Shown: positions 33,055 through 57,590 of the stretch, one piece after another
How the letters are laid out: each line of letters begins with the position of its first letter
Numbering within the stretch: the stretch's first letter is position 1
Assembly: GCF_020520425.1 (NCBI RefSeq)
Contig: NC_079489.1
Span: 16,640,001-16,704,000 of the forward strand
Source: Spinacia oleracea
Taxonomy: Eukaryota > Streptophyta > Magnoliopsida > Caryophyllales > Amaranthaceae
Length of the DNA: 64,000 nucleotides
Direction of reading: 5' to 3'
The notes under the pieces: generated by a model
The model's database searches: none
The model's input: only the letters and a program-made list of their open reading frames with translations
Told to the model about the DNA's origin: nothing
Translations under genes and position numbers: made by a program

Positions 33055-34395
33055 CAACATATATATATTATCCCAATCATAAAAAATACACACCAAACAG
33101 GGGGTTAAAGTATAAATCAACCAAACTTGATTATATACACCTCATCTTCTTGAACTTGATTATTAATTTTAATTTGTTCTTCTAACTATTCTAGCTCAAG
33201 CTGCAACTCTTCCAATCATCTAATAACATCATCAACATTTTATACATGCTCCACAAATCCATACTAAAGTTGCAAATAAGTTAATAGAATTACTACCATT
33301 AATGTGGAATTGCCCAGAACATAAGAAAAATGCAATCAGCAAGTGATGCAATTCACCATCTTTCATTTTAATTGAACAAATTCAAAGTAGTAACCCATTG
33401 TGATGGATTTTTTCTAATTCCTTAAATCAATCCATTCTCAAATTGTACTTGACTAACCAAACTTAAATAAAAGTTGATAGAGAACAAAAGTATAGGGGAG
33501 AAATAAATATGGAGTAACATGCTTCATTACTCAATTTATATGTTTTAAACATAAATATTTCTTTTTTTATATATTGATGTTAAAGTGTGTAATTCTCTAT
33601 TTGTGATAACATCATCAACAGTTCAACACCATCACCACCTTCATTACTCAACTTAAACCCTTCGATCTTCTCCTCTTCGACACCACAAATCAACCTAGAG
33701 ACAAAACTCAAAATGTCTTTAGAAATCATTACAGAACCAACTTCAATAAGAAAAAAAAATAAAGGACTACACACTGTTACTAAACATAATATAAAGTAAA
33801 TCAGACGAATCAGAATTATTATTAAAAAAAACAAAAAAAAATCACACATAACAATTCATCAAGAAAATTCACCCAAAATATCAGAAACAAAAACAATAAA
33901 CATTATGTAAAGCTTCGAAATCAAAAGATTAAGACATGCAATTATAAATTTCATAAACCATCACCTACATTCAAGGCAAGAAATTTATAATCAAAATCAT
34001 CGCCATCGTCGACGGAGAAACGTGAGACAAAAGCCCTAATAATACGAAAATAGAAGAATGATATATTGGTTTTCCAATTTGTTTGCCGCCTATTACCGAT
34101 TTTTTCATCTAACGCTTTCTTAGAAATTGAATTCCAGGTCTGGTGCTTTAAACCCCAATTGCATCATCAAAGCTAACGGGCAATACCTAGACGGATCGAA
34201 TCTGAAAACTAGAGGAATTATTCATAGCTAGGCGTTGTGGTCGGCCCGATTGACGGAGAAGGAAAAAGTTAGATATTTGGTAGGAGAGAGATTGCGGTGA
34301 TAAATGTGGGAGGAGAGATGTATGTGATATTGTGATGAGATATTAGAGAGTACTCCGTACCAAGATAATGCTGAGAGGAAAAGGGTTGATAATTA
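33055..34395. other. Noncoding flank left of the large MULE
   Basis: No domain-bearing frame is present. The last ~300 bases have moderate GC and short CCTAATAAT/GAGAGATG tracts that resemble a plant 5' region, but no gene can be assigned. Confidence 0.4.
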
Positions 34396-34445
34396 AGCAA
34401 TTTCGATGGTGCAGGCGTGTGCACCTAGATCTAGTTGTACCGGGA
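34396..34445 (+). repeat. Left terminal inverted repeat of the MULE
   Basis: The segment GATGGTGCAGGCGTGTGCAC at ~34405 runs into CCTAGATCTAG. It matches the right end in reverse complement. The half-palindrome around TAGATCTA is degenerate on its right side here (TTGTAC instead of GTGCAC). Confidence 0.85.
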
Positions 34446-34685
34446 TTAAAACGCAAACATTTTAAAACAAAACGCGTATTTTCATTAATTCTGCAGTTAA
34501 AAAGAACAAGTCTCACAATATAAAAGAACATCATGTGCTCTGTTCTTCCCTGTTTAGTTTTCGCGATTTTTTTTGTTGTTCGCTCCTTTTTATATGTCTG
34601 GGCTTCATAATTTTGAATTCAAAAAGTGTGAATAGGAGAGAGAAAGCTTACATTTGTGCATAAATTTTTTTAGAGAGAGAAACTG

Positions 34686-37600
34686 ATGGAAAATTCTCAA
34701 ATATTCCATGATTTCTCTGTTTCAACATCAATTTCGAATGATTCTTCTTCTTGTCATCTGAATTCTTCAGCTGAAAATCAGAGTTACGAAGGTATTCTTT
34801 CAATTTGTAATAACGAGTTGCATTTTTCTTTGATTTTATGATTTCGATTTCATAATAATCGTACTTTTTATGTTTTTTGTGATTGTAATTAGTTTGATTA
34901 ATTTAATTTTGAATCTCATTCTTCGTTGATTTTGGTGATTGTTGATAATGAAGGTTACGAATTGGTTTTCTCGTTGATTTCGCATTTATTTCATTTATGT
35001 GGTGAAACTGATTCTGTAATAACTATTATATTTAAGGAATATACGTTGATTTTGTCTGTTTGCAGAAAAGAACATTGTATCATTTCAGAAGAACATTTTT
35101 CAGTATCAAATGAACATGTTTAGAATACGTATTGAGACGTTCCTTTTTATTATATTTAGCTTTTCAAATAAACACTGATTGTTCTTTATTGATTGTTCTT
35201 TTAACTCTTCATTGATTGTTCTTTAAGTCATAGTGTTCTTTTCGGTCACCTTTTGTGTTCGTTTACTCTATTTTATTGTTCATTTTAATAGTTACTGTTC
35301 CTTTGATTCTTTATTGGTTTTTTTATTATATCTGCACGGATTGTTCTTTTATGTTTTTATGAGTTTACATTGTTCTTTTGATTGACAAAACTGATTGTTG
35401 ATAATTATGCCGATATTGTTCTTTTAGGTTTTAATGTGTTCTTTTGATTGACAAAACTGATTGTTCTTTTAACTGTTTATTGATTGTTCTTTTAATGCGT
35501 AGTGTTCTTTCCAGTCTAGTTGGAGTGTGTAATTTACTCTTGATGCATTGTTCTTTTCTAATAGGTACTGTTGTTTTTTATTCTTTATTGGTTGTTCTTT
35601 TATATCTGCCCAAATTGTTCTTTTAAGTTTTAATGTGTTCTTTTGATTGACTAATTGATTGTTCTTTTAACTCTTCATTGATTGTTCTTTTCATGCCTAG
35701 TGTTCTTTTCAGTCTACATGGATTGTTCGTTTACTCTTGGTGCATTGTTCTTTTTAATGGCTACTGTTCTTTTAAGTTCTTTTGTTCTTTTCTTTTTCTG
35801 ATTTTTTTTATTTTATAAATTTCCAGATATATTAAATAATGCAGTTAATAATTCAGAACAAAATGATGCTAATGAGGATCCAGAATCCTATGTGGTTGTT
35901 GGCCAAGGTACATGAATTGTACTTTTACTTGTTTATCACAATGTTCGTTTACGTCTTGTGTTTGTTCCTTTATCATACTTATGATGTTCTTTGTGTTCTT
36001 TTTTATCGTCATGCAGATTTTGAAGAACCAGTTTCATTAGAGGGAAGTGTAGTTAAGGATGATGATGAGGCGTATGAGTTATACAACAGTCATGCATTTA
36101 GGAATGGTTTTGGTACTAGGAAGGGTAAAAAGGAGTATAGAAGTGGTACTAGAATAGTTCGACAACGGTTTTTTGTTTGTGCATACGAGGGGTTTAAAAA
36201 TCCAGATGGTGTTGTGCCTAAATCCTTTAAAAAAATTGATAGGAGAACTGGATGCAAGGCTTCAGTTCAGTTTGATGTTGATAAGAAAACTGGAGTGTAA
36301 GTTCTTTCTAAACATTCCCGTCTGCATAACCATTCAATGGTTCCTGCTAATAAGAGACACCTTATTAGGTCACATAGGCACATTTCAAAAGAACAATTGG
36401 CTTTTCTTACTACTTTTACTTGTAGTGGCACGAAGCTTGCTAATGTTCTTAGAGCTATGAGGAAAGAAGTTGGTGGTGAGGCGAATTTAGGGTTCACTGT
36501 TCCTGATGCGTATGATGCTGTTTTGGCAGAGAAGAAGAAAAAGTTGGATGGTTGTGATTCAAATCAGTTGATCAGATGGTTCGCTATGAGGCAAGCTAAA
36601 GAACATGATTTTTATTATGATTTTCAATTGAATGAAGAGAATCAGTTGATCAATTTTTTTTGGAGAGATGGAAGAATGCGGTCTGATTATGAAGCTTTTG
36701 GTGATTTATTGATTCATGATACAACTTATCGTACTAATAAATACGATATGATTTGTGGGCCTTTTGTTGGAATGAATCTTCACACTCAAAATATCATGTT
36801 TGGAGTGGGTTTTATATTGAATGAGAAGGCAGGTACTTTTGACTGGCTTTTTAATTCTTTTTTGACTTCAATGGGAGGGAAGCAACCTGTGACTATCATG
36901 ACTGATCAATCTTCTGCCATGGACAAGGCTATAAGGTAAAGTTCTTTTAGGTTGTTTGTATGTTCGTTCATCAAACACTTTTGTTCTTTTGTATTTTTGT
37001 ACTATTTTTTATGTTCTTTTTCTTTTGTCTTTCTGTTTAGTTTATATTTTTATCTATTTTTTTGGTTTATGGTTTTTTAGGGAAGTGTTTCCAAAATCGA
37101 GGCATCGTTTGTGTACATGGCACATTGGGGAAAATGCTGTTGTAAACATCAAAGGTGTTATGGCCAAAGAAGGTTTCAAACGTCGGTTTGATTATGTTTT
37201 GAAATATACTGACACAGTTGCTGAGTTCGAGCATCATTGGAATAGGTAAAAATTATTTTGCTAATAGACTGATTAGTATTTAAAATTTTGTTTTGTTCTT
37301 TTCATTCGACAACATGTTTTTTGTAATGTTAAATAGTGTTCTTTTCATGGTTGATGAAACTTGTTCTTTTAATCTGGTATTTTAATGTTCTTTTCTTTGT
37401 TTAATAGAGTCCATACTTCTTGAACTGTGATTGTGTGTACTTTCTTTTCAAGTTTTATTGTACTGTATATTGTTCTTTTTTTGTCTTCATTTGTTCTTTG
37501 TTTTACTCAGGGTGTTCGTTTTGTGTCTCTGATTGTTCTTTTGTTCTCCTTGTTTGTTCTTTTGTAGTCTTATGACTGATTACAATTGCAAGACACACAA

Positions 37601-39183
37601 ATGGATAGAGAGGTTATATGATTTGAAAGAGAAATGGTGTCCTGCATATAACAAAGAGTGGTTTTCTGGGGGTATTTTATCTTCTCAAAGGAGTGAGACG
37701 ACAAATCATTCTATTTCTAGGAGGTTGCATAAAACGAATGGTTTATGTGATTTTTATAAGTGTTTTTTAGATGTAATTGATGAATGGAGAAGTAAGGAGA
37801 ACAAGGGAGATTATAATTCTTCTACTGGAAATAGATATTACGCATGTGCGGATAACATGTTATGTTTGCATGCGCGGGATGTGTATACCATTGCAATATA
37901 TTTGATATTTGAGCAACGATTCATCAAAGCAATTGGTTTGAGGTGTCAACGCATTTCCTATGAGTTTCCAGTTTCTAAGTACATTGTTGGGCATCCTACA
38001 AAGGATTTTATTAGACATGTTGTGATGTTTAATGAGCAAGAGATGGTTGTTGATTGTACTTGCAAGTCATATGGAGAGATATGAGTTCTTTGTTCTCATA
38101 TTCTTCGAGTTTTCATTGTCCATAATGTTGAAGAGATTCCCAAACAATACATTATGAAGAGATGGACCAAAAAGGCTATGAACATGATTGTTGAAGAAGG
38201 AGAAGATAGAGATAATGAAGTAAGTGTTGTTTCTGCTTCAGTTTGGAGGATGCAAAGCATAAGAAATTGCATTAAAGTTATAAATGAAGCTCAACATTGT
38301 CCGGCTGCAAGGAAGCTTATTGATTTGGGTGTGTTGGATATGTCATGCAAAGTGAAGGAGTATATTGGTGGTGTTGAAGGGGATGGTAATGTATCAAACA
38401 AGTATGTGCGAGAAGAAACTCTACTTGATGTCATTGAGCCTTCAACAGACACAGTTTTGCCGGATGTTGTTGAACCGATTGCTGAAAAAGTCATTCCAAC
38501 AATGATTCAAAATCCACCAAAGCGAAAGAGGAAGATTAAGAACGGGACTGAAAAGGCTAATGAGAGGAATGTGAGACCTAAAGGAATTGTTGAGAAGAAA
38601 CGCAATAAACTGAAAGGTTGGAACAAGAGAAGAGAAAGACATGTTGATAATTTGAGGGAGGAAACTCAGTCTACTGATCAGGTAAACTGTTCTTTTTAAA
38701 CATTTATTTGTTCTTTTATTACTTTGGAATGTTCTTTTTGTTTATCATTGTTCTTTTTTCCATTTTTATGTTCTATTTATCCTTTTTGTTTATGATCTTT
38801 TAGTTTACTTTATTATGTTCTGTTCTTTTTAATAATCTATTTGTTCTTTTATTCCTTTAGTTTGTTCCTTTTGTTTATCATTGTTCGTTTTTCTTTCTAT
38901 ATGTTCTTTTGTCTTTTTGTTTATGTTCTTTTGCTAAACAGTTCATTTTTAAAAAAAACATCTATTTGTTCTTTTAATGTTTATTATGTTCTTTTTTATT
39001 ATCTATTTTGTTCTTTTTTCTTCTTTATCATGTTCTTTTTTTCCTTATTGTTTCTTTGTTCTTTTTCACTGTATCATAAATTTACCTGTTGGTGGGGTTT
39101 TGGTTCATCCAACATCTTCAAATTCACAATTGGAAGCATATGTTCCAGATGATTATTTTGGAGTACACATACAACATTTGTAG
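34686..39183 (+). pseudogene. FAR1-type MULE transposase gene with two premature stops
   Basis: In-frame exons are 34686-34791, 35827-35907, 36017-36935, 37081-37245 and 37568-38681 (phases 1,1,2,2), a ~795-codon frame. A further 3' piece is possible at ~39085-39183 (LPVGGVLVHP...). Order: acidic N-terminus; FAR1 DNA-binding domain (EAYELYNSHAFRNGFGTRKG); MULE DDE domain with LIHDTTYRTNKYD (first Asp) and TIMTDQSSAMDKAI (second Asp); RLCTWHIGENAV; and a SWIM zinc finger (CTCKSYGEI...VLCSHILRVF). A basic tail (PPKRKRKIK) is a likely nuclear signal. Two in-frame stops are visible: TAA at 36298 before VLSKHSR, and TGA at 38082 inside the SWIM finger. The element is related to the FHY3/FAR1 regulators, which derive from such transposases. 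Confidence 0.86.
35130..39070 (+). repeat. GTTCTTTT-rich noncoding DNA, sense orientation
   Basis: Introns and 3' part of the transposase gene contain dozens of (T)TGTTCTTTT words at irregular 15-40 bp spacing, especially 35160-35780, 37290-37560 and 38690-39070. The exons are largely free of them. The motif is on the same strand as the transposase mRNA. Confidence 0.9.
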
Positions 39184-41689
39184 ATTCATTTACGATTGGT
39201 AATATTTTTATTTTTAGTTTGTTGTGTTTTTAATCATTTGTTTTTGTATTCTCAATAATGTTCTTTTACTCTTTTGATGTATATTTTTACGGGCTACTGA
39301 TGTTTCGCTCAATCAATATTTTGAAATGAGAATTTTTAGTTGTATATATTCTTATTTTTGTTTTGATTTTTGTGCAATTAGGATTGCAAAATTATTGCAT
39401 AAAGGAGTATATGCTTAAATGTGAAAAGAACTTACTAAAAGAGAATAAAAAGAATTTTGGAAAGGAAAGAACATATCCCATGATATAGAAGAACATGGTC
39501 TGGGATTGAAAAGAACTTGAACCTTTAATTGAAATACTTGTTTAAAATATCCAAACTACTTATCTGCAACTACTAGAACATCTAATTGTTTCCAAAAGAA
39601 CACCACACATGTTTAAAAGAACAACCCATAACTCCAGCAATAACCATATCTACAAAATATACCATTGTTTTTTAAAGCATACTTCTAATAAAAGGTAACT
39701 ATTATTCTGCCTTCATGAAAACAACCAACTATTCAACTTGATTAGCTCTCTTCAATGCCAGATACATTAGCTCATGCCTTTTGTTCAGAACGGATAATAA
39801 GATTTCAGTACCGTACCGCATTCTCAGCTTGCAAATAAAGTCTTTCTGAAAACATAAAATAGTACATTAATAAAAGATTATATATTAAAATAATATACGT
39901 ACATATATTCAAAATTTACTTACATCTTCATCTGTGTTTTTGAAGCCACAATTCCAAGTCTGGTTGCCTTTGTAGGTCTCCATATGCCTCATTGCATATA
40001 CCCCACAATCAGTCTTGTTTGTTCTGTTCTTCCATGGCATTTCAAGCAACACAATTTCATATGCTGAAATCTGTGCCTTCCGCAAAGGATGTCCTTCTTG
40101 TTCAGAAAATATTGTCCATGCTTCAAACTGAAATAAAAAGAACATTTAACTTAGTAAAAGAACAAAGAACAAAGAACAACAAAGAAACAAAGAACAACAA
40201 AGGAAGGAAAAAAGAACATTTAATTTAGTAAAAGAATAAAGAACAACAAAGGAAAGAACAAATAAAATATATAAGAGGAAATTCTTCAAATAGACTTACA
40301 GTTCTTTCTGCAAATGTTTTATATTTATCATCATATGTAATTCCTTTAGGTAAGGAGAGATTGTCAATGATCTCCACCTTCTTCGCCTTTTGGTTGATTA
40401 CAATGAGATAAAAATGATCACCAGACCAGACTGGAAAGAACAACTACAAGCAGAGAAAAGAACATTAAACAAAGGAAAACGAACATATGTAAAAAAGAAA
40501 AGAACAATTTTATAATTTTACCAGATGGAATCCCTTCAAAGACTTCACACCAGCAGTTACATACTCATGGCGTACACTTAAAATAAAATTTTCTAAGCGT
40601 TTGCCCTCGGTTGCTTGACTATCCTGTGATCCACCATACGGTTCATTCTGGCAGAGCATATTCTGCACCGAAAAAAAAATAATTTTAAATATATGTTATA
40701 TAATAAAAATAACTGAAGAAGTACGAAAATATGATTTTTTAGTGATATTAAAACTTACGAAAGGGATTGTAGAGAAATAGAACTTCAAGTTACTCTTGAC
40801 ACTTTGATCTGGATCATCATTCAGTATTCTTGCAAAAGTGTCAATAACATTATTCATCACCCACACATTGGGAGCTGTTTTAAAGGAAAAGAACAAAAAT
40901 ATGAGTAAAAGGAACATCAACAGCATTTAAAAGAACATTTTAAATTCCAATAATTAAATATATACCTAGGGTTTGAAACTCTTCTCTGGTAACTATATTC
41001 CAATCATCAGTGTACAACACCTGACTGTTATAAGAATGAAAATAAAATTTCCATAAGAACATGTACAAAAAGAACATCTACATTCAAATACTTGTAATAG
41101 TATAAAATTCTTACGTTGGGCTTCCCTTTCCAAAGGCATAATCCAGTACGCATCGCATGTCCTTTTCCTTTTGATTCAACTGTTCTTCCCCAACCAGTAG
41201 GTGTGAATACTGAGTTAAGAAGGGTGACAGTAACTTGAGGGGAACATTTTTCTTTCTCTTAACAAGTTTAGGTACTTGTACGTTATCTGGATCCTCTTCC
41301 TCACTTATGAAAACAAAGACATTATAAAGTAAAAAGAACATATTAGAGGGAAAAACGAATTCAGACTAACAATAAAAAGAACAACAAAGTGAAAAGAAAA
41401 GAACATTTTATAAATGATAATGAAAAATAACTTGTAATAATAAACGAAAAATAACTTATAAAATAAAATGCAGTAGTCATACTCTATGTTCATAGATGTA
41501 GGTGCATTTTCTGGTTGCGAGTACACCGCACTTGGAGTGCTAAAAGAGTGGAAAGAAAAGAATATATTACTATAAATAAAAAGAACAAAAGCGAGAAAGA
41601 AAAGAACATTAAATTGAAGATTATGAAAATTATATTTTAATAAAATACAGTAGTCTTACTTCAGGAATATTGATGGAGTTTCCATTTCA

Positions 41690-41870
41690 GTCTGCGACTC
41701 AGCGGCAGTTGGAGTCTTAAACTCGGATTCTTCAGTTCTAACAGTTGGAGACATGGGGTTTCCATCTTCAGCTCCTTTGATTAAACCTTCCATAGTCTGA
41801 AACTCGGAGTCTTCAGTTCTAACGGTTGGAGACATTGGTTTTCCATCTTCAGCTCCTTGGATTAAACCTT
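41690..41870 (-). repeat. 27-residue tandem duplication in the protease
   Basis: The exon encodes two consecutive 27-aa units: MEGLIQGAEDGKPMSPTVRT... and MEGLIKGAEDGNPMSPTVRT.... They are offset by 81 bp (41731 and 41812) and differ at a few codons. The duplication keeps the frame. Confidence 0.9.
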
Positions 41871-44269
41871 CCATATCTGATCTCACATTTTCAGGTTCTC
41901 TGTGTATTACAAAAAAAAAAAAAGAACATGTGAGGAGGAACAAAGAACACAATGAGAAGAATTAAAGAACAAAAGTGCAATGAAAAAGAACATATAAGTT
42001 AATATTAAAAGTAGGAAGATATTAAAGTAAATATAGAAAGAACATAAAGAAATATATGAAAGGAACATTCCGAATAAAAGAAACAAAAGATCCATTAAAT
42101 AATTGTATAAAGACAGAGAATTAATAAAAAGAACAAATCAAACGAATAAAAAAACAAATAATTGTTTATAAAAGAACATTGTGAATAATGAAAGAAACAG
42201 TCACATATTTATTATACATGTGTATGTGAACTGTTTTAAAAGAACGCATACTCAGTTTTTTCTGTAGGTGGCTGTTGTTTTTCAGCTTCATCTTTGTTGT
42301 CCCCTGAAATTGTCTCCAAATCACGTTCAGTCAAAGTTTTGTTTGCCAAGATTGCTTCTAATCTCATTTCCTCTTCAAAGTCGTGTGCCTGAGGAGGAGG
42401 ATTTGAATCGGAAACCATTCCAAGCTTCAATGTCAAATCAGCAAATACATTAGGCTGGGAAGGCATGATCGGAGGTGTTAAAAATGGTGGCAAATCAAAT
42501 GGAACATCCTCAGATTCCTCGATTTCCTTTCTTTCATTTCCTTCTGTTGCCTTTCGTACTGCTTCCTCAAATAGTATTGTGAAGTAGTCTGAACTGAAAA
42601 ATTCTTTATCTTGACTGAGGATTGAACCAATCTCCTCAGTATTCCTTCCTTCTTGCCGCTCTTCTGTAGAGTTGCCCTTCTCAAAAGTAACTGGAATTTC
42701 AGTTCCAGAGCATGTTGACCACATTTTTGCCATATTGAATGGCAGACTTTTTTTGACATCAATAGTAGTGTCAAAGAACTTTCTAGACAACGACAATAAG
42801 TCGTTGAACTTGTTCATGACACTACTGAGTTCAGTAGTGGTTTTAGTGAATTCAGCATGGAATTCCTGTTTAACAATAACAACAATAAGGACTGGATAAA
42901 TAAAAAGAACATTCGAATGGAAAAAAGAACAAGAGAGATTCCTAAAAGAACATTCAAGTAGAGCTTAGAAACATTGTTAAAGATCGAAAGAACATGTTAA
43001 AGAGATAAATGAACATGTAAATAACATGCTTAAACATATAAAGAACATTCAAATGTAAAGAACATCTTTTTAAGAAAAAAGAACATGCTTAAATAACATG
43101 AATAAACATTTAAAAGAACATGTAAAGAACGTAAAGAACTAGTTTTTGATAAAAAGAACATAAACACAGAAAGCAAAAAACATGGTAGGAAAAAAGATTA
43201 TATTGAGTACGTAAAAGAACATTTGTTGGAGGAAAAAGAACATTACAACAAAAACGTTGAAAAAATAAATGCAATGGTTTTGTTGAGTGAATTTAATTTT
43301 TACCTCAATTGTAGAAGGGACTTTTGCTTTCTCACTGGGGTCTGCCTGTTGCTCTGGCAAATCTTTGTCATCCCCGAGTTGAGTCACTGGTGCACCTTGA
43401 TGTTCTCTGGGCACATCATTTGTGGACCAGTTAGGCTCTTGGTGTTGATGTTGCTGTTGTGGTTGCTGCAGTGGTTGCTGCGATGGTTGTTCATCATGTT
43501 GCTACTGTTGTTGTTGTGGGTGTTGAAGAAGAAGTGGTGGTGGTTGTTCGCTGAGTGCTTTTTGCTGTTTGAGCACCTCCATCTCCTCCCTGTACAGTTG
43601 TAGCTCAGGTGGACCTTGAATTCTGTCCAGAATCAAGCCATGTCCGAAGCCTGTAGCATTGTCATTGCGTACCCTGCTGCTTATCATATCTCTTGTCCAG
43701 CAAGAAATTAGGGGGAAGTTCCTTGGAGGGTACTCTTCCATGATCTGCACCCGATCGAAATAACATACCTAATTTAACAATAACAACATAATTTATTGTT
43801 AGTTAGGTGAAAGAAGAAGATGAAAGTAATATATATAACAAAGGGAAATGCTAGCTTAATGATTGAAATTTACCATTAGAAATGGTAGTGGACCAGCAAA
43901 CCATCTGCTACGGTCCACATTCCAGTACATAGCTGCCCCAAGAAGGCTGGTGTATGAATACTGGCACCAATTTAGATTCCTCACTTGCTCCAAGTCAACA
44001 GTGCTTGCTAGGAATCTGAAGTTTGGCTTTTGAAACAGAAAAATATAAAAGAAAAGAACATTAATTATGATTTTAAATAGAATAAGAAAATAGAACATTC
44101 AATAGAAAATAAAGGAACATTAGAGAGAATGAAAAGAACAATGAAAGAAGAGCAAAAGAATATTGAATACAACTGAAAAGAACACAACTAACATTCATAT
44201 AAAGGAAAGTACAACAATAGGACAGTGAAAGAGAAAGAAAGAACATGGAATTCGACAAACAAATAAAAG

Positions 44270-44690
44270 AACAATAAATATTAATAAACATTTAAAAGAA
44301 CATAATACGCAAACAAAAGAACATTAATGAGAAATAAAAGAACATTAATGAGAAACAAAGGACTTTTGATGTAAGAAAGAACATGGAATATCATACAGAA
44401 TAAAAGAACAGTGAGAAATATTTAAAAGAACATAATACGCAAGCAAAAGAACATTAATGAGAAATAAAAGAACATTAATGAGAAACAAAGGAATTTTGAT
44501 GTAAGAAAGAACATGGAATATCACACAGAATAAAAGAACAGTGAAAGAGAAAGAAAGAACATGGAATTCGACAAACAAATAAAAGAACAATAAAAATATT
44601 AATAAACATTTAAAAGAACATAATACGCAAACAAAAGAACATTAATGAGAAATAAAAGAACATTAATGAGAAACAAAGGAATTTTGATGT
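44270..44690 (-). repeat. Threefold duplication inside a protease-gene intron
   Basis: The block AACATAATACGC-AACAAAAGAACATTAATGAGAAATAAAAGAACATTAATGAGAAACAAAGGA-TTTTGATGT occurs three times (starts near 44298, 44428 and 44617) with small changes. The rightmost copy runs into the splice donor of the mobile-domain exon, so the intron grew by tandem duplication of its own 5' end. Confidence 0.85.
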
Positions 44691-46269
44691 ATACCGATAA
44701 ATTAGTAGTGGATTTAATGCAGGTGTTAACTGCAACCACTAGGAAAGATCTCTTCCAGTTATCATCAACTGGAGTCTCATCTTTGATCAGTTTTTCAACC
44801 ATTTCTTTCAATTTTGGGCATCCAGACTTCACTTTCCAGTATGCCCAAAATTCAGCAAAAACCCTCAACACTTCAGGATCTTGTTCATCAGTCCATTCCA
44901 CGACCGGAGCTCCTCCAATAGGTATACCGTACACCAGGTATACATCCTCTACAGTAATATCAAGGGAAGACTTTGGTAGATGCAAGGATCGGTCGGACGA
45001 GTTGAAATTCCTAACCAACTCGTACGGGAATGGATTTTCGTTTTGTGGGATGTCAAGTTGCAGAAGAGATCCAAAGCCTAACTCCACGATGGCTTGTTGT
45101 TTTCTTATATCATGTGGTTCATTAGATGCAATTCCCCTCAAGAATCGCATCATCAATTGCGGAGTTTGCCTTAGATTTAGTTTCCTTTCTTCAGGTTTTG
45201 GTTTGGCAACAACCAAAGATTTTGGTTTCTCATCATCCACCACCTCCATGACCTCATCAGAAACAACAATTTGTTTACTTCTTGTTGCTCTCTGGAAAAA
45301 AGAAAAAATATAAAGAACATTAGTCAGGGAGTAAAAGAACATTATATGGAAGAAAAAGAACAAATAACTTAAGAAAATTTTTGACCTTCTCAACTACTTT
45401 TTTCCCCTTCTTCATTAAGGGTTCACTTTCCTCTTCTACTTCACTACTACAAAAAATGGCAAAGAGACCCTTCCAAAATGGCTTAAGAGATCTCCTTTCA
45501 AGGGGTCTCTATCTCACAGGTCTCTTTGATAAAGAGACCCCCTCATCGAGAGGGGGTCTGTTTGTTAAAAGTTAGAGACCTCCACGTAAGAAAGGGGGTC
45601 TCTTCTGTAAATGTTGGAGAAAATATTTTAGAAGGGGAAGAGACCTCTTAATAGAGATGTGAGATCTGTTTGTTAAAAAGTTCAGACCCCATAAGTAAGA
45701 TATGAGGTCTCTTTGAATATTTAGTTAAGACCTCATATATAAGATAGGGGGTCTCTTTGTTATTTTTATTATTATTATTTTTCACAAATTAAGACCTCGT
45801 ATCTTAGATATGAGGTCTCTTTGAATTGTTTTATTATTATAACTAGAGAGCCTTTATTACACCTGACGGGTCTCTTTGCAACCTTATTTTTTTTAAAAAA
45901 AATCGATAATAGCAGAAGCCAGCTACGCCAATTCAGAATTAACATACATAATACACCTGCGTTTACACCTCTATAAATATCGGGCAGCAGGAATCAAACG
46001 CACAAAACCACAAAACCACACCTGCTAATCTGCTATAATACATAATTTGTAATAATTTGAGAACAATTCCATAACCCATATATTACCAAAAAAATATATT
46101 TCCCACAAGTAATGCTCAAAACGCAAGCTTTTGCATAAATTGTAATTTGCATAAACGTCAAAGATTTACATCGCAATTTCCAAAAACGTAAAACAAAAAT
46201 CAATTTCAAAATATAATCATTCATGCCAATTTACCAACAATTGGAACCGAAACTAGTGGAGTTATTTTC

Positions 46270-48000
46270 ATACCATCAACTTGGTTTTCTTCATCTGCTT
46301 CATGCTTGAGCAAATACTCGACCCACATGTCTCTAACCTCATCCTCATTTTCTGATGAATAAGTTTCTTCATAAAACTGTAATAAGTAGCATAATTAGTA
46401 GTTAAACAAAGGATAATTTGTAAAAACCGACTCATTTACCGATTTACGATAACATGAATGATGAGAAAAATATAAACAGTTAAATGTAACTTTGAATACC
46501 AACCAGCAATATATTAAGGGTAATTTATTTGGTTGCCTAAACTAAAGGGCATCAACATTAAGGCACCAAGAAAACTCCAAAAAAAAATAGCAGGTAGCCA
46601 TCCAACAACACCAACCAACTGAAATTCTAACAGGACTGCAATCCCACTGATCCACAACAAAAAAAACACCACCAGAGGCCTGTTGCAGCAGCAAACCCAC
46701 ATGACATCACTTCATACCCCATTCGGAACTCATAGAACAAACTGGATGTCCATTTATAAGTTTTCAGAGCCTGGTTTTGAGGTTCATAATTGGACTGTTG
46801 GTGGTCAAAACAATTGATGCTTGTTACAAATGATTGAGGATCAGTGGATATCAAAGTTAACTTTCCAAAGAACAATTTATTTCACAGGAAGTCATCTAAA
46901 ACGAGCAACATGGATATCTTGTTCATTCACCAGACACTAATTCACACATAATGGAATATGACAAATAACATAATCTTTCTAGTAAAACAATATCGTATCA
47001 GGATTCAAATATTGCAGAAATATGACATTTATAATACTGAGCACTATCTTTTCAGAAGCTTTCCATACCCCGAGTAGCTTGCACTATTAAAAGTTCCATA
47101 CTTCAGTTTACTGTATCCAAGTAAGAATGACAGATTACAACAACAGTGTAAGATTTAAGATGTACTTGTTTGCAATTCGGTAATAAAAGACAAACCTTTA
47201 TGAACATGGACGGTGAATTTATTATAAACAGACAAGTTCAAATTCAAAATTACGCAGCAACTATCAAAAGAAAATCAGCTAAAACTCAGGAATTAGGGCA
47301 ACACAAGTATACTTGAACAATACCCAAAGATCTTGCAGAAGCTCCACAAATTAGTTGTCATTTGGCTACAAGAATGACAGGGAATATTTTCGACTCGCTT
47401 TGAACAAAACTATTCGCCAAAAGACAAGATAGCAAGCAGTCTTGCAACTAAGTATGAAGAGATACGCAGAGAAACTAGCAGATTCTTCAAACCTACCTTT
47501 TACAGTGACAAAACGCAACCACGGTGCTGGTGCACAAGTCTGCCATAATATATGCCCAAGTGTGCGTGGTCTAGGTGGGTATGGAGCAAATCTTCATAGC
47601 AAGTTCATAATTCAGCTCACAAGATGTCAGACAAGATAAATGAAAGAAAACAATGTAGTCAAAGTACTTGAAAGAGAAGTGATCAAATACCAATAAGTCG
47701 CATACACACAAACGCAGACCACGCAACATACCATTCAGTAGCCAAACTCTGAGGCTCCGAGGCCCAACAGTAACGTTCTTAACGTTCTTAAAACATGACA
47801 TTCTTAACTTTCTCTTTCAGGCCAGGAAGAGGTCGCACAATTTAATTAGAAGTAGGAGATCTTGTACTTCGCCCGCCTGCTGAAGTGATACCCCCACGAC
47901 CACCAGCAGCCCCAATTGTCATCGAACCACTATCTGAGGTCTCTGGCTCCATGTAAAAGTGAGCATTAAATGCAACAAGATGGGTATACTATGTTTGTGG
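46270..48000 (-). pseudogene. Other captured exon-like pieces in the CACTA
   Basis: Two minus-strand stretches look like exons. One, at ~46275-46380, reads FYEETYSSENEDEVRDMWVE. The other, ~47845-47952, reads [16 protein letters not shown] and ends TRSPTSN with a stop at about 47845. Flanking sequence contains splice-like borders. I do not recognise either family. They are acquired fragments by context. Confidence 0.45.
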
Positions 48001-48139
48001 GACTGTGTTAATCAGAGGAAAAAAAATTAGAACCAAGACATTGGAAAACTGTAAATAACCACACAATCCAGGACAAACAGATCGGCTACAAATAATCATA
48101 AATTGCAGACACAAATATTTGGATATGATATTACTAAAA

Positions 48140-49741
48140 TTTTCATATCCAACTCTAAGCATTATCTTGCAAAGGGGTTCCAATGTTGGTGCCTTTTCCA
48201 ACAGCTGAAACTTATAACCATCAAGATCTTCTATAAAAGCAATAACAGAACTTTCACCATTGACTGGACCAGGTTCTCGTGTCACCTTTCCACCCTTTGC
48301 CTTTACAAGGCTTACTGTTTTAGCAACCTACATCAGAGAAGTATCCTTAATAACTGGCCATATTCTCATACCCTGGTAGTACATTCAACCAAAGACTAAT
48401 TTCTAAAGAACTCAAGACCTTCAACAAAGAAAAGAGTCCAAAATGAGAAGGAAATGAGAAATGTGAAAAGAAGCAAAAAAGGCTGCAGTGATGCTAGAAG
48501 CTTGCAAAAGATCAATAACTACTTTTCTCAATCAACTTGAATAAAAGATGTTCATTATAAGGCAGGTTATTCATATCTGATGCAATAGGAAAACATACAA
48601 GCCAAGAAGGCTCGTGATAGGAAAATACCCATATTTAAGTCAACATGTTCTATTTTGGGATGTTCCACATTTGAGTTAACATCTACTTTTGTAAGTTTTA
48701 TATCTCCACATTTCTCTTAAATTAGGATCCACTCACTGGCCCACTTTTTTTATTTGCTTTTCACTCTCCTTAATCAGTTAATCTCAATGCAAAACATAAA
48801 TATTAACGTAAATACGAAATGGAGGCAGAATACAAAAAATATCAACCCAGTAATTAAGCAAAAAGATATTGGGGGGGGGGGGTGTTGTGAGCTCTCAAGC
48901 AAACAAATTGACTTCCATGAAGATTTTGAGGTATAAATTCTGAATAGATATAAACAAGTTTCAACTTGTCTAAGATTATTCTTCATGAGGGTGATATATA
49001 ATGTATTGTAGTTTCTAGTTTCTACTCATCTTAGCGTAGAAGAAACTCCAGAGTACATAGTAATCAATATCATTTAGTGCAGGAAATTCTAAGAAATTCA
49101 AGGAAACTCACATCCTCAACTGCAACACCAAAGTGACCAAAACAAGTCCCAATATCATATTTGCCAACTCCATAGTCTGCAACCATTGTTTTAATTGCAA
49201 CACCTTGTTATTTAAGATGCACTACGCACAGAACAAAAATGAGCAAGTATACGGTAGCAAAGGGAAGTCAACAAAATGATAGGTCTATATGTTCATTGTA
49301 AAAAGATGGATTTAAAGCCAGATAGCTTACTGTGTGAAAGTTCAACCGTAAAATGTGACTCTTCGGGTCCAAAACCAAGAAAGGCAGTTGAATATCTTTC
49401 CTCTGGGATGTCTCTTTTCCGCAATACCTTCATGCCAAGGCACTCCGTACAGAATCTACAGTTTTCTCACAATAATTAGTCATCTGCTTCATAATAAGCA
49501 ATCTAAAATTTGCAGATGTTAAAATTGGAAATGTACTTTATAATCTTATCTAAATCTCCAACGCTATAAACAACATGAAGTAGTCTTCTCTTGTCATTTT
49601 TAGCCCACTGTACAACACTTTCCTCCGTAACAGAAGGCCTTGCTTGAGCTATATTGCCAACTGTACCAGCCTCCAGTGTATTCCTGTCTGGGCTTGGCTG
49701 TGTAGATTCCTTTATACCAACTAAATGCGGCTGTGAGACAA
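48140..49741 (-). pseudogene. Captured glyoxalase I (lactoylglutathione lyase) fragment
   Basis: Minus-strand exons with their introns kept match plastid-type glyoxalase I in order. At 49537-49741 is NDKRRLLHVVYSVGDLDKII; at ~49336-49455, ECLGMKVLRKRDIPEE and FLGFGPEESHFTVEL; at ~49107-49180, KYDIGTCFGHFGVAVEDV; and at ~48140-48330, GGKVTREPGPVNGESSVIAF and DGYKFQLLEKAPTLEPLC. The family makes S-lactoylglutathione from methylglyoxal. The second glyoxalase domain is missing after LRVGYE, so it cannot be a full enzyme. Retained introns show capture from DNA, not mRNA. Confidence 0.88.
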
Positions 49742-51219
49742 CTGTAGAATATGAAATACGTATTAGTGCAAAGTTGATAATATTTACATTAACTTCATGA
49801 GATCAACATACATTTCTCCATTTTCTTCATAAGATTCCCTCCAACACAAGAACATATACCAAAAGAATACTAAAACATAACACGTATTAAACTCCTGGCA
49901 GAACCACATTCTTCCGCAGAAAGTCAGAAACCAAAGTACAGTTATCCACCTAAGCCTTTCTCTTACGCAGTTCTACCTATTGTAATAAGCTCGTTCAATA
50001 GGAAAACTCTCTACATCATAAGTCCAAATGGACCAATAAGATGAACTAATAACAAGAATCAAAATTCCACATGGTATCGCTTCATTTGTTTTTAATTTCA
50101 CTTAAGGTTATTGTTAATCTGCAAAGAATCATCAACTCCACTGATCAAAGTCACTTTCTTCCCAAATTCATCGATCACCAGAACTCCCATTTTTTAATAA
50201 AAAATAAGACAAGACATATGAATTATACATCAACATCAGATTGGAATTGGGATTGTCAGATCAGATTGGAGAGTATCACCTCCACTTTTTGAGAGTGTCA
50301 TACACGAATTTTGTTGGTATAACCTTTGATTGCAAATGATACTTATACCCAAATAAATAAAATTCTTAAACAGTCACCAGTAAGAGCAAAACAGAACGAA
50401 AAATGACTACCAATAAGAGGAAAACAGAATTGAACAAACTAGGAGAAGGAGCAGAACCAAAAACACTCCAATGCTAACCAGCATACCCAACATGATATCT
50501 TATAACAGAATCTAAATCAGAAAAATAAATGTACTCTTCTGCAAGACGAGAAGTACCCACCACACCAAACTTTAATAAGGAACGTACCAACTACAACTAC
50601 AATCATAAAGTAAATTGTTAATTTCTATTTTCAAAACATTAACCCTTAACTTGAAACCTATGACCAAATCATCATTATTCATTACCTCCCCTATTTGGCT
50701 CAAGCTCTACCAATTTTCATAAGCCTTTCCTAGTGGCATTAGAGAATAAAATTAGACAGTTCCATTTGACTCAAGTTGGGTACAAATCCAACATTTGTAG
50801 AACTAGTAGCAATACGGAATTAGTAGATTTCACAATTCACATCAAACAAAGAAACTAACAAAACCAAGTATGACTAGTCACATTACAACAATAGTTCTTA
50901 AATTCACACACTACATTTCGTAGAAGAAACACACAAAAATAACCAAATTCAATCATATTCCGATCAGTTCCTCGATTAACTTTATACCCTGAAACATTTA
51001 AACCAATCTGAAATCCAAATTCCGCTCAAATCCTCCCGAAGATCGATCCCTCAAAACCCTAATCTCACAACACATAACCATAGAATTAAAAAAAACCCCT
51101 AAATTCCGTGAAATCAATAACAAACAAGAAAAAACGCAACACAGTTGCAGCAAAATCAACATGAAATTCAAATGAAATCGACAAAAATATCACAAAATCA
51201 GAAATTAAAGCTAAAAAGT

Positions 51220-51300
51220 TACAGACCTGGAAAATGGCGAGAGCGATGAACTTTTCGAGGTTGAGCATAATCAGATGCCATAGGTTCTTCTGGTTCAGAT
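51220..51300 (-). pseudogene. Captured first-exon-like fragment in the CACTA
   Basis: A minus-strand frame starts MASDYAQPRKVHRSRHFPG and runs into a GTCTGTAACTTT donor-like site at ~51229. It lies upstream of the glyoxalase exons and could be the start of a chimeric transcript. The family is not recognised. Confidence 0.4.
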
Positions 51301-53099
51301 ATGCGAGTGTATTTTAGCTCGTTGAACTCTGGATGTTCGCTTCTAGGTGATTCGATTTTCACACCCTAGTTGATCAGATCGAGAGGTGCTCGATGGAAGA
51401 GAGATGGAAAATCTAGCCCTTGATTTATTTATCTTTCAATGAAACATAGTTGTTGGAGATTTTTGAAGAAGGAAAAGCTAGAGACCCGGCAAACAAAAAA
51501 AGGTCTCTTCCTTTTCTTTTTCCTCCGAAGTCTTGTGGGTCCATGAAAAAGAAAAAGCTAGAGACCCGTTAAATTAAATAACAGATCTCTAGCTTCTTCT
51601 ATTTTATATTCTGCAAAAAAATTGTGGGCCCTCTAATAAATAAGAGACCCGTTAAATTAAGTAACGGGTCCCTTGCTTTTCTAATTTTATTTTTCCCACC
51701 TTATTTCACTCATTACAGATCCGTTATCTTTAATATTGGATCTCTTGTATTAAAGAGACCCGTTATCTCAACCAAAGGGTTTTTTCTTAAGGGTCTCTTT
51801 GCCCATTTTTGTAGTAGTGCTTCTTCACCTTCTTCTACACCTCCTTCTTCATCTTCCTCGTCTTCATAAACCTCCCTCACAACTATCTGATTAACTTTGC
51901 TACCCCTCTGAATGAAAAAAGAACATAAATGATGATGTAAAGAACACAAGACAGGAAAAAAAGAACATTCTTTATTTAAAACACAGCATTTATCTCTATT
52001 ATAATATAACATTAAGGTAAATAAAAAGATATACAAAAAGGGTAATGTGAAGTTTACCTTAAGTGCTGCAGTCTTTTTCAAAGTAACTCCATTCCCCTTC
52101 TTAGCATTTGGTGCAACTTTTTTTGTTGAAATTTTCTCAGCAGGCAACAAGCTCTTCTTCTTATGTGCCTCTTCCAATTCCTGCTTTACCTCTTTGATAA
52201 GATCGGGAAATTCTTCTTTCAGCAATTGACTTCTGTTGACCAAAACAATAGAACATAAGTAGTAAAAAAAAGTAAAACACAGAAAATAAAAAGAACACCA
52301 TTTATGTAAGTTACCTTGTCCTTTTCCTGTTTGGTATTGATTTCCTAGACTTCCCCTTTGCTTTTTCAGGTTCCTCACCAGCTTCTTCTCCGTCTGTTTT
52401 CTTTCTAGTAAAAACATAAATGCAAAAGTATGTTTAAGAAACGAAAATAACAACTACAATGTAAATATGAAATAGTATTAACAAACACAGATGATACCTC
52501 AAAGTAATTTTTAAGTTCGTTTTCTTTTCTTTTCTTTCTGGTTCATCCAGCTCTTCTGGAACTTTTACCTCAGCCTCCTCTTTTTTAGGTTCTTTCACTT
52601 CTTCATGCACTTTTACTTCATGCTCTTTCTTTTCAGTTTCTTCCTACTTTTCAGGATCTTTGCTGGAATTTTTTTGTCCTTCTCCACCCTTCTTTTTTTG
52701 TTCAATCAGATCCAGCTGCTTTTCCTGTTGTAGCAGCTTTTCCTGAAGTGCTTGCACCATCTTCTGTTGTTCTTGCAATGCTTTCCTTTGTTTGGAAAGT
52801 CTATAATGAAAAAACATATGTCATGAAAAAAAGAACAACACCAAAAACACATGTTATGAAAAAAGAACAACAGAAAAATGTTTGAAATAACACATGTAAT
52901 GGAAAAAGAACAACATGTCGTGTACAAAAGAACACAGCTATGCTTTTGGAAAGAACACATATTATGAAAAAAGGAACAACACAAAAAACAAGTGCACAGT
53001 TCTCATCCTGCACCCTTGTACAATATCTTATTCATCTGATTTTTTTATTTTTTCATATACAATATATAAATAATGTTTGTCCTCCATATTCTCATTCAT

Positions 53100-54110
53100 T
53101 CATCATTGCATAATTTTAGCAACACATTTTAGAGAGAGAAAAATGAGAGGTTTTATTTTCTCTCAACAGAAGAGAGAATTTAAGAGAGAGAAAGAGTGAA
53201 ATGCGATTATTTTCTCTCCAACTTTTCGCATTATTGTTCCTGTTTTTTTGAGAATTAGTGAATTAATCAGAATACTAATTCTCAGGAGATGAAAAAATAC
53301 AATTTGCTAATTTTCGTAGAAAGAAAATTGAAGGAAATAATGAAATTCAAGAGGATTGTGATCATTTGCTGAGGATTTATGTTGATGTTGTTGATAAATG
53401 TTGTTCAACTGTTGATCAAGGTATGCTTATATGTTCCTTTTCTTATGTTCTTTTTATTAAGTGTTCTTTTACTGTGTGCTAACAGTTTTAGGTTTGTCTT
53501 TTAAATGTAGATGGTTTGTTCTTTTATCCGTGATTGATTGTTCTTTTTTTTTTAAATACATTTAAGAACAAGTAAAAAGAACACCATCTCATCAAATCTA
53601 AGCACATTGTTCTTTTTAATTTTCATTGATTGTTCTTTTAATGCCTAGTGATCTTTTAAGTAGACATGGACTGTTCTTTTCTTCTAGATGCATAGTTCTT
53701 TTTAAGCCTACATTAATACTGTACTGTTCTTTTGAGTGTACATTGGTTGTTCATTTGAGTCTACATTGATTGTTCTTTAAACCTGCACAGTTGGTTCTTT
53801 TAAGTTTTTATAGATAAGAACATAGATAAAAAAGAACATAGATCAAATTCAATAGATAAGAACAAAATTATAGATCTAGGTTTAAGTTCGTCAAAATTGT
53901 ACTGTTCTTTTTAGTCTATTTGTTGTTCTTTTAACCTGGGCGAATTGTTCGTCAAACAGTAGGGCTAATAAAAAGAACAGACAGTAAATAAATAAAAGAA
54001 CATAGATCTACTTATTTAATTTAAATTTCCACTGTTCTTTTGAGTTAACATTCGTTGTTCTTTTAAATCTATACCATTGTTCTTCTAAGTGTATGATTCA
54101 GTGACTTAAA
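53100..54110 (+). other. Orphan 5'-gene-like segment plus GTTCTTTT tract
   Basis: Within the protease gene's second or third intron, the + strand has a leader-like AGAGAGAG region (53130-53230). An open stretch (DEKIQFANFRRKKIEGNNEI...) then ends at a GTATGC donor-like site (~53420). GTTCTTTT words follow in + orientation, opposite to the surrounding gene. The layout copies that of the transposase gene's 5' end, but the sequence differs. It may be a remnant of another related MULE gene. Confidence 0.45.
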
Positions 54111-54859
54111 ATACATTTAAAAAAAACATAAATGTAGATCTTCTTTTAAATTCGTTAAAAAATGTATTTGGTTTCGTTATTGTAATTAGAACATTAAGGA
54201 AAACAAAAAGAACAAACAGAAGGTGTAAATGAACCAAGGTTTTTGTTTAAAAAATCCACTTACTCGCTCTCTTCTTCTTCTTCCGTTTCTGAAACTTCTT
54301 TGTTGATATCTTCCAACAAATCCGCATCAATTGTTGGTGTAATTTCTTTCTCTTTCTTCTTTTTGTTTCTTAAGTTCAATAAAGTCGTTGTCAAAGGAAC
54401 ATCATCCCTTCAAATGAAATTTTATAGAAAATTAAAATTCATGGGAAATTCTCTAAAAATTAAAATTAAACTGAAATTCAAGAAATAGAAAAGAAAAATA
54501 AAGTTGAATTCTTACTCAATAGAACATTTCGCATCAACTTCTTCTCCTTTTTTCGATTTCCCCATTTTCAATTGTTAGGGTTCAAGTTTTTGTAACCAGA
54601 TTATCACTTCCAAAAAACAAATTGGGGAAGTTTTTAGAGTGAAAATAGTAGAATTCCAAATTGGGGAAGTTCGGATTTGCAAGAATTTGAAAGGTTTTGC
54701 ACTGTTTTTTTGATTGTTGGTGAGTGAAGGTTTTGCATGTAGGTTGAGTGTGAAAATGAAAATAAATGTCGCATTCAATGATGTATTTATATATGATAAA
54801 TTGAAGAGAGAGAAAATAACTGCTACAGTATTTTCAAATTTAAACTTCCTTTTTTTTTT

Positions 54860-55750
54860 GTTGTTCTTTTCGTCCGCTCTTTTGTTCTTTTGGCCTATAA
54901 GTAAAGAAAATGATGTTCGTTTGAGTCTCCTTTGTGTTCTTTTTATTATCTGTTGTTAGTATTTTTAAATTTGTTTTTTATTACTGTTTTTACTTAAATT
55001 ATATTTTTTTATTTTTTTTATTTTAAACAGTAATCTATTTTTTAATTTTTTAAAATACAAAATGAAAGACAAGTAACTTATTTAATTTTTTTTTTATTAA
55101 AAGATTTTGAGGAGAGAGAAATTAACTGCCACGTTTTATGTTTTCATAGGAAAACTTCTGTTTTGCGGTTTTTTTCTTGCCACGTTCATTATTTCAATAA
55201 AAAACTTCTGTTTGGCGGTTTTTTTCACTTTTTAACGTTTTTGTTGTTCTTTTCGTTGGTTCTTTTGTTCTTTTGTGCTTCTGGTGTTGCATTTGCCATG
55301 TTCTTTTTAAAAGTGCAGAGAAATCGTTCTTTCCTTGTTTTAACCTTTCTGGTTTTTAATATGTTTGTGTTTTTCTTTTTTTCTTTTTGTTCTTTTCCTT
55401 TACTTTCTGATCTTCTCTCATTTTAGTGTATTATGTTCTTTTACGTGTTTTAATCTTTTTGGTTTTTAATATGATTGTTCTTTTCTATTTGTTCTTTCGT
55501 TTAATTGCTGATGTTCTTTCTTTTTAGTGTTTTATGTTCTTTTACGTGTTTTTACTTATTGTTCTTTTACGTGTTTTTACTTATTTGTTGTTTTAACCTT
55601 TTTTGGTTTTCAATGCTATTGTTCTTTCCTGTTTTACTTATTGTTCTTTTGGTTTAATTCTTGATGTTCTTTCTTTTATGTTTTTGTGTTCTTTTATGTT
55701 TTTTGTTGCTTTTTTATGTTTTTGCGTTTTGTTCTTATTTTTCTGCGTTT
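54860..55750 (+). repeat. Right-end GTTCTTTT tract of the MULE
   Basis: GTTCTTTT words on the + strand (for example ~54860-54950, 55245-55270 and 55430-55740) fill the region between the protease start and the right inverted repeat. It is upstream of the protease gene, and the motif is antisense to it here. Confidence 0.85.
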
Positions 55751-55754
55751 TGGT

Positions 55755-55803
55755 GCAGGTGCACCTAGATCTAGGTGCACGCGCCTGTACCATCCGCGCG
55801 TTG
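55755..55803 (-). repeat. Right terminal inverted repeat with perfect palindrome
   Basis: It contains a perfect 22-bp palindrome (55759-55780) centred on CTAGATCTAG, followed by GCGCCTGTACCATC and then the 9-bp target duplication. It is the inverted counterpart of the left end and is better preserved. Confidence 0.85.
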
Positions 55804-55812
55804 TGATAATTA

Positions 55813-56018
55813 TTAAGATTTTGTACATAGGGGTTGATAATTTATTAAGGTTTTGTGAGTTTGGCTCCGTTCTCTTCGTCTGATCTGGTCTGGTCTGGTC
55901 TGGTCTGGTCTGATTTTTCATTTTGCTGGTCTAGTCTGGTCTGGTGTGGTCCGGTTTGGTCTGGTCTAATCTGATCTGGTCTGGCCTGGTTTGACTTTTC
56001 TGAATATTATTATATACA

Positions 56019-56519: not shown

Positions 56520-57590
56520 TGTTAATATGATTTTGTTCTTCGGATTGAATGCCAAATTCTTCTTGCTACCTTCGTTCGTACCTTTTCCATTTTTTTCTTG
56601 CGGTTGTCATCGAACATACTAATTCTTCTTGCGGTTGGTATATGGTATCTTGTATCTTTATCTTCTATTAAACTTAGGTATCCAAGAGTATTTGGATATC
56701 CGGAATCCACCAAATAATATTTCCCTTGAAAATAAAACAAAAATTGGAGATATAGAAAATATTGTTGGATTAACTTACACAAACTTATAACATGATATAT
56801 ACCTGTAGGTGGATGTGAGAATTTAAATTTTGGCTCCGGTAAACTGTGAATCCATACAGTTACATCGTGATCACTTCCCTTGAATCCCACATTAACAAAT
56901 GTGAATAGTCTATCAAACGAACATGATGCAAAAACATTCCATGTTTTGCTCCCTTTTCTTCCACGAAATGCCACGCCTTCATTATCAGATATAACCGCAT
57001 TTATGTGAGTTCCATCTTTCGCTCCAACACAATCCTAAGTACACAATATTACATATAATAAGTATAATCGTCAATAGGAAAAAGAATAAGTAGATGATAA
57101 ACAAACTACATAGTACCTCAAAAAGGGCCAGTACTTTGAGTTGTTTGCTATTTTTTCGGGATACTCGTTCAAATGTTGAAATGGTTTGATAACCTCTACA
57201 GACATACTAATAAATGCTTCTAGTGCACATGAAAATAATTGTTGATAGTATCCAAACCATGTTAAAATTTATCAGCTGTTACGCGATATGAGACTCCGTG
57301 TGCCATCATCCATAAGGCAATACCTAGTTGCTCCGCAATTGCTATGAATCTACCATATGATAATAACTTTTTGTCCTCTACATACTTGATTAGCTTGATA
57401 ATATATCTCCATCTAATCTTATTTGTTCTTTGCATAAATCGGAATGTGTGTACAATAGTCTATTTATAAAATCGCTACCTTGTTCTCCCCCAACCCTCAA
57501 AGGCCGCCTTTTAAGCGGTGTAAGTAGTTTCTTTAACTCTTCTAACGCAATGATCATTGAACAACTTCGAACCACGTCGATATTCATTCT
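56520..57590 (-). pseudogene. PIF/Harbinger (HARBI1-like) transposase remnant
   Basis: Minus-strand reading gives DCVGAKDGTHINAV (~57034-56990, first catalytic Asp), FRGRKGSKTWNVFASCSFDR (~56970) and GSDHDVTVWIHSL. KYYLVDSGYPNTLGYLSL (~56720, second Asp) and RYHIPTARR follow. The 3' end departs from the family, and the third catalytic acid (the usual TIEQTFG block) is absent. An intron-like gap splits HPPTGIYHV from GKYYLVD. The upstream part (57390-57587, ELKKLLTPLKRRPLRVGGEQ) is followed by a stop-ridden stretch. A DDE nuclease family member, clearly inactive. Confidence 0.82.

Follow-up and report, generated by a model that had tools for sequence, protein, structure and literature searches.

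Among described transposable elements, the VANDAL group of Mutator-like elements (MULEs) in Arabidopsis comes closest to the locus reported here. According to Hosaka et al. (2017, PMC5735166), the VANC proteins of these elements bind short sequence words in introns, intergenic regions and terminal non-coding DNA, where the words lie densely and in a single orientation, and binding leads to loss of DNA methylation in the protein's own family. VANC21 and VANC6 read different words, and the removal of the marks after binding is named as an open question in the discussion of that paper. Silencing by RNA-directed DNA methylation targets the same kind of regions (PMC10398659), and a 2026 review says that Ulp1-bearing VANCs (KIU) act likewise (PMC13317346). 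Here, we analysed 64,000 nt of the Spinacia oleracea genome (GCF_020520425.1, NC_079489.1, positions 16,640,001 to 16,704,000 of the forward strand; "the window", in whose coordinates all positions are given). The window carries a MULE with a total length of 21.4 kb, nested insertion included, whose non-coding DNA is filled with a lattice of short words. With a probability of roughly 70%, we read this lattice as phased docking sites for an anti-silencing protein that recognises specific sequences and is encoded by the element itself, most likely its PMD-like/Ulp1 product; it is the parallel with the VANC/VANDAL arrays of Arabidopsis that suggests a target array of the element's own protein.

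The lattice and its phase

A preliminary description of this DNA, made from the sequence alone, had reported a lattice of GTTCTTTT, and the lattice is real: 133 copies (72+/61-) lie in 35,130-55,740, as against nine in the 42.6 kb outside the element. Three more stand in the left end of the element before 35,130, which brings the window totals to 77+/68-. The copies are distributed as 44+/1- in 35,130-39,390, 0+/48- in 39,391-45,441, 0/0 in 45,442-51,819, 0+/7- in 51,820-53,400 and 28+/5- in 53,401-55,740, in agreement with the strand flips already placed near 39.4 and 53.4 kb. Of the possible cores, TGTTCTTT has the best support and is also the most frequent octamer of the element. It occurs 154 times in the element's non-coding DNA (8,898 nt) and five times in 6,135 nt of exon (approximate model), besides once in the 6,378-nt nested insertion and five times in 42,589 nt of flank, which upholds the near-absence from exons that had been noted. 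Four blocks make up the lattice: 34794..39390 in the sense of the transposase gene (plus strand, TGTTCTTT 47+/3-), 39391..45441 in the sense of the second gene (minus strand, 0+/63-), 51820..53400 (minus strand, 0+/9-) and the right-end block 53401..55723 (plus strand, 30+/5- for 53401-55806). In 200 dinucleotide shuffles of any of the four, the largest count was five. An alternative exon set on another copy of the element (c7), built from tblastn matches with queries from the window's own frames, gives eight sites in 6,049 nt of exon versus 150 in the remaining 8,759 nt (Fisher p=3e-25).

The sites are spaced two helical turns apart, the distances on one strand peaking at 21-22 bp. Gaps of 20-23 bp account for 54 of 131 in the family of the window copy, where an exponential distribution predicts 7.8, and a second group of 16 lies at 41-45 bp. 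The spacing had been called irregular before, so that the phase was the main point missed. A simple satellite was nevertheless rightly set aside, and we reject it as well, since the blocks sit between exons and the spacer lengths vary.

Elsewhere in the window, a 21-bp tandem array of TAAATTTAGAACATGCTTGAA lies within 13405-14637, with about 45 copies in 13692-14637, a GAACATG core and the period of the lattice. No homology to the proteins of the MULE was found near this array, which could be another array of the target type, belonging to a short element.

Related families and short relatives

Four related families in the same genome share the plan of the window family. They were found with 212 aa of the transposase as query, scoring 150 of 1,252 candidates, which fell into identity groups of ~97-100% (A, the family of the window copy), ~91% (B), ~60% (C and D) and ~44% (E); some further matches were partial or intermediate. 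We fetched a single locus for each of B (L029-L030), C and E and two for D (D, L033-L034; D2, L035-L036), and A is represented in the comparisons by c7; the results for B, C, D2 and E thus rest on a single locus each, and the copies of family A are not independent of one another. D2 replaced D in the five-family comparison, because D matches D2 to ~6.7 kb only and then continues as other DNA; at locus D we saw weak enrichment only (TGAACATT, 12 vs 1.6 expected).

Three types of word are used. TGTTCTTTT is enriched in A and B (127/170/4/12/0 copies in A/B/C/D2/E; two in 42.6 kb of flank), TGTTCA in C and D2 (14/17/110/127/25; 33 in the flank) and TTAGTTAAC in E (0/0/1/0/150; none in the flank). 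The first two share TGTTC, and TTAGTTAAC is unrelated to both. Conservation among related elements, which the preliminary description had proposed to look for, is divided: plan, phase and exon avoidance recur in all five families, whereas the word changes in C, D2 and E. For exon-homologous versus remaining DNA, the latter including unrecognised exons, the sites per nt are 3/4,626 vs 181/9,719 in B, 1/2,787 vs 109/13,242 in C, 3/3,069 vs 124/11,374 in D2 and 0/2,448 vs 150/11,688 in E; together with the c7 values given above, exon avoidance is seen in all five families examined (Fisher p between 3e-8 and 7e-27).

The 20-23 bp gaps are likewise in excess in all five families, with 74/159 in B (9.4 expected), 34/85 in C (4.3), 50/104 in D2 (5.9) and 66/133 in E (7.3) besides the value for A, and the most frequent gap length is 22 bp in C and 21 bp in the other four. 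Genome-wide, and counting overlapping triples and near-identical copies, which hence are not independent events, there are 3,166 TGTTCTTT triples at 20-23 bp, compared with 34 for the reversed-pattern control and 29 at 25-28 bp; for TTAGTTAAC, the same kind of count gives 885 triples and none for the reversed control. Among the TTAGTTAAC array matches listed, three E-type transposase matches on C1 fall within clusters. For the density in unrelated introns, which the preliminary description had named as a refuting comparison, these genome-wide counts and the window flanks provide an indirect test only.

These comparisons bear on the idea that the lattice is neutral tandem-repeat growth by slippage of ~21-bp units, tolerated outside coding sequence. 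Some blocks are indeed true tandem repeats, in the window as well as at L037, and coding constraint alone would yield the exon avoidance. However, slippage would have to produce a single period common to three word types, and arrays in most non-coding blocks rather than in just one. Moreover, A and B show a fixed core with mixed neighbouring positions (the fixed core being set by the method of site collection), and both families have the same word though their second genes stand at dS 1.2. We therefore regard slippage as distinctly unlikely. The underlying rates of nonsynonymous (dN) and synonymous (dS) substitution between A (c7) and B are dN 0.025 and dS 0.231 for the transposase pieces and dN 0.250 and dS 1.214 for the second-gene pieces (dN/dS 0.21), and within the transposase one stretch is 96.5% identical and another 85.2%. 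From these sequence comparisons, A and B look like mosaic elements, and the second gene appears to be old and under constraint; despite the distance between their second genes, the two families use one and the same word.

Arrays are also kept in short relatives, two of which (L039, L040) were examined among six places picked from array matches. L040 is similar to B at both ends, and L039 is similar to A and B at the left end and also to inner pieces. Protein comparison of the two loci gave no MULE, PMD-like or complete Ulp1 match and, exon 1 aside, only short weak matches, including a FAR1-like one of 30 aa in L040 (E=0.001). Both relatives retain TGTTCTTT (13+/11- in L039, 12+/28- in L040). 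Since the arrays persist without the genes, they fit the target of a protein supplied in trans.

The carrier element, its genes and the strand of the words

The whole MULE, nested insertion included, extends over 34396..55803, as judged from a 9-bp target-site duplication (TSD; TGATAATTA at 34387-34395 and 55804-55812) and from ends common to ten other copies, which are flanked at these ends by repeats of 9-11 bp in nine cases and of 8 bp in one. The left arm of the terminal inverted repeat (TIR; 34405..34475, plus strand, 71 nt) is 80% complementary to the right arm with which it pairs (55724..55794, minus strand, 71 nt). Ten further copies from the same genome are 98.6-99.2% identical to the window copy over 34,397-45,442 and 96.1-99.4% over 51,820-55,803, and the DNA between 45,442 and 51,820 is missing in all ten. 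This DNA (45442..51819) is a nested CACTA-like element, foreign to the MULE and outside the lattice system, with ends CACTACTAC that are 94% complementary over 31 nt, CTT at both borders and no GTTCTTTT. It accounts for the word-free 45.4-51.8 kb, for which reason a single continuous element was rejected. The extent first proposed, 35130..55740, is not that of the element and takes in the foreign insertion. Four full-length copies (c1, c2, c3 and c5) are mutually 99.97-99.99% identical over ~15.3 kb, with mismatches only counted, and therefore family A moved very recently. Just outside, a GTCTG pentanucleotide repeat of about 22 copies (55878-55990) adjoins the right end.

The transposase gene (34687..38660, plus strand) has FAR1 (Pfam 2.3e-10) and MULE domains (PF10551, 1.9e-17, above cutoff), and its exons lie approximately at 34687-34793, 35827-35909, 36058-36936, 37086-37260 and 37571-38660; exon models are approximate throughout, with splice sites placed by eye. 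With this MULE-type transposase, a TSD of ~9 bp and TIRs, the element belongs to the MULEs. The second gene (39729..52790, minus strand) faces it on the opposite strand and comprises a PMD-like part, a variable middle and an Ulp1 (Peptidase_C48) C-terminus. The window copy is broken, as the transposase contains two in-frame stops, neither of which is present in the ten other copies, and the second gene is split by the insertion. In joined exon translations of A, Peptidase_C48 scores 1.2e-5, above the Pfam cutoff, as it also does in joined pieces of B (3.1e-6) and D2 (1.6e-5), and the initial assignment as a MULE with a protease gene is thus confirmed on both counts. The Ulp1 protease exons (39729..40875, minus strand) contain apparent His, Asp and Cys residues in GDHF, IIDN and TDCGV, which by eye we take to be the catalytic triad. 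Searched against the PDB, the Ulp1 region of family B returned a single match, an Ulp1-like SUMO protease, at E=0.18. Homology to the second gene was found in B, C, D2 and E, weakly in E (PMD-like 4e-5, Ulp1 0.003). After the PMD-like part, an exon of A contains an 81-bp tandem repeat (41713-41880), and family-specific peptide runs stand there in B (Q/P/E-rich) and D2 (PQENV-type). Translations suggest a tentative further 5' exon at 54262-54405 (minus strand); it has no match in family B.

The FAR1 domain leads to the proposal that the transposase itself binds the dispersed words, for transposition or to regulate its own gene. FAR1 is a DNA-binding domain, two TGTTCTTT sites lie ~105-130 bp from the left end (34501, 34523), and in the FAR1 piece A is 92% identical to B, with which it shares a word, and 43% identical to C, whose word is another. 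On the other hand, no TGTTCTTT was found within the left TIR arm, and the sites spread through the introns to the middle of the element instead of gathering at its ends. We consider the transposase an unlikely reader. The preliminary description, in suggesting dispersed transposase sites, was close in so far as protein-binding sites are meant, although the PMD-like/Ulp1 protein is the likelier one to bind them.

The strand of the words follows the genes only in part. Counted as plus/minus in the transposase and second-gene spans, the word follows gene sense in B (20/1 and 2/62) and E (30/2 and 0/25), and A shows 33/3 and 14/71, the 14 stemming from the 53.4-54.2 kb block when the tentative exon is counted. 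In D2, the transposase span has 2/3, the second gene 1/44 and the DNA outside these two 30/36. In family C, TGTTCA is found 8+/102-, on the minus strand through both opposing genes. The rule that the words are always in sense, as first described, has exceptions: three of the 50 TGTTCTTT in 34,794-39,390 are on the minus strand. At 53.4-55.7 kb the rule fails, as the 28+/5- block runs antisense to the protease gene or lies upstream of it, and the rule is weakened further by the 14+/71- of the second-gene span in c7 if the tentative exon belongs. A third, plus-strand gene at 53.4-55.8 kb would put this block in sense; this was considered, but we saw no convincing exon for it in the translations.

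It had also been suggested that the words act as U-rich intronic splicing or RNA-binding signals, and the sense orientation in both genes of A, B and E, with few exceptions, as well as the 42-56% T on the sense strand of the sampled introns would agree with this. As a primary role, this is very improbable in view of the 8+/102- in family C, the right-end block of A that is not in sense with the second gene, and the short relatives, in which arrays of both orientations persist although no transposase or Ulp1 gene can be recognised. Moreover, splicing leaves the 21-bp register unexplained, and it is this register that the families share, not U-richness. The T content of the hand-sampled introns is alike in A, C and E, from which we infer that introns must stay T-rich on their sense strand, tying only T-rich words to gene sense; the strand flip is therefore probably secondary.

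Two other observations in the window concern separate sequences. Plus-strand frames at 9538-11462 resemble, by eye, an endonuclease and reverse transcriptase of the long interspersed nuclear element (LINE) type, and a minus-strand frame at 56522-57034 resembles a fragment of a PIF/Harbinger-type transposase; both labels are our assumption from familiar motifs.

A probable target array and its relation to known systems

In the reading of the lattice as docking sites, short double-stranded DNA sites at a phase of ~21 bp would mark the non-coding DNA of the element as target, and molecules of the PMD-like/Ulp1 protein would sit next to each other along the same face of the helix. From there, the protein may erase silencing marks or block them on members of its own family, including the short non-autonomous copies, and spare the rest of the genome. 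Exons would be free of sites because coding constraint forbids them. As the site would be read as DNA, a T-rich word would follow gene sense, and a near-neutral word need not.

Several points weigh against this reading. VANDALs are noted for absent or degenerate TIRs, and the spinach element has arms of 71 nt. Neither DUF1985 nor DUF287 was listed in Pfam scans of the pieces or of the joined pieces of A, B and D2, and the PMD match in the joined second-gene exons of A (9.9e-7) is below the Pfam cutoff. The observed/expected ratio of CpG in lattice DNA (0.60) lies above that of exons (0.39) and the insertion (0.48) and below that of the flanks (0.75). The 12 copies of TGTTCTTTT in D2 show that the words are not perfectly family-exclusive, and the account of the strand as secondary draws on hand-picked introns of three families.

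Besides, we put forward as a speculative and rather doubtful extension a helix-phased address code. Three or more words, set on a constant 21-bp scaffold, would recruit the PMD-like/Ulp1 protein, and this protein would take SUMO off silencing factors, but only where the DNA bears the word; the word would be replaceable and the scaffold kept, with the strand set by the gene only if the word is T-rich. If this is true, silencing would be countered by sequence-addressed deSUMOylation, in a lineage of MULEs that bear TIRs and have no detectable DUF1985. Several families in one genome, with three words, one helical period, short riders and recent mobility, form a natural series in which one can ask how the choice of word and the 21-bp period are determined, and whether it is the Ulp1 domain that does the work. 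A simple rule for spotting such systems in raw sequence is suggested as well, namely to look for a word that recurs every two helical turns and is restricted to the non-coding parts of a MULE.

In this respect, Sasaki and colleagues (EMBO J, 2022) reportedly found in Arabidopsis experiments that targets act via sequence, density and helical periodicity and that non-autonomous copies take part; words and domains (DUF1985, DUF287, Ulp1) are said to turn over in eudicots. Periodicity and non-autonomous copies, as so reported, resemble the 21-bp register and the short relatives in spinach. Our literature search, thin in its coverage of subscription journals, found no paper on such a lattice in Spinacia oleracea. 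The preliminary description had known of no element built this way; the Arabidopsis VANDAL/VANC system is very similar (PMC5735166).

VANC-type features found here are the family-specific word and its dense same-strand runs in non-coding DNA. Both systems are MULEs with a dense same-orientation word in introns, intergenic and terminal non-coding DNA, with related families using different words, with tandem repeats, and with a fast-varying second protein containing tandem peptide runs (PMC5735166). The words themselves differ, being YAGTATTAY and AGTTGTCC/AGTTGTAC in Arabidopsis (PMC5735166). By Pfam, the spinach element has PMD-like and Ulp1 parts in place of DUF1985/DUF287, and it has TIRs; as neither domain was detected, it is not filed as a VANC. 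With the KIU-type VANDALs, as the review describes them, it shares the Ulp1 domain in the second gene and words in the non-coding DNA of its own kind that are recognised there and would be recognised here; KIU are non-TIR elements (PMC13317346), and because of its 71-nt TIR arms the spinach element is not filed with them either. The MULEs of melon, rice and grapevine resemble it in having an Ulp1 domain gene, and the available part of the review mentions no word lattice for them (PMC13317346). We therefore file the element as a TIR-MULE with an Ulp1 gene, probably working like the VANC system. VANC-type anti-silencing is already worked out in Arabidopsis, and the spinach system would be a TIR-bearing Ulp1 variant of it.

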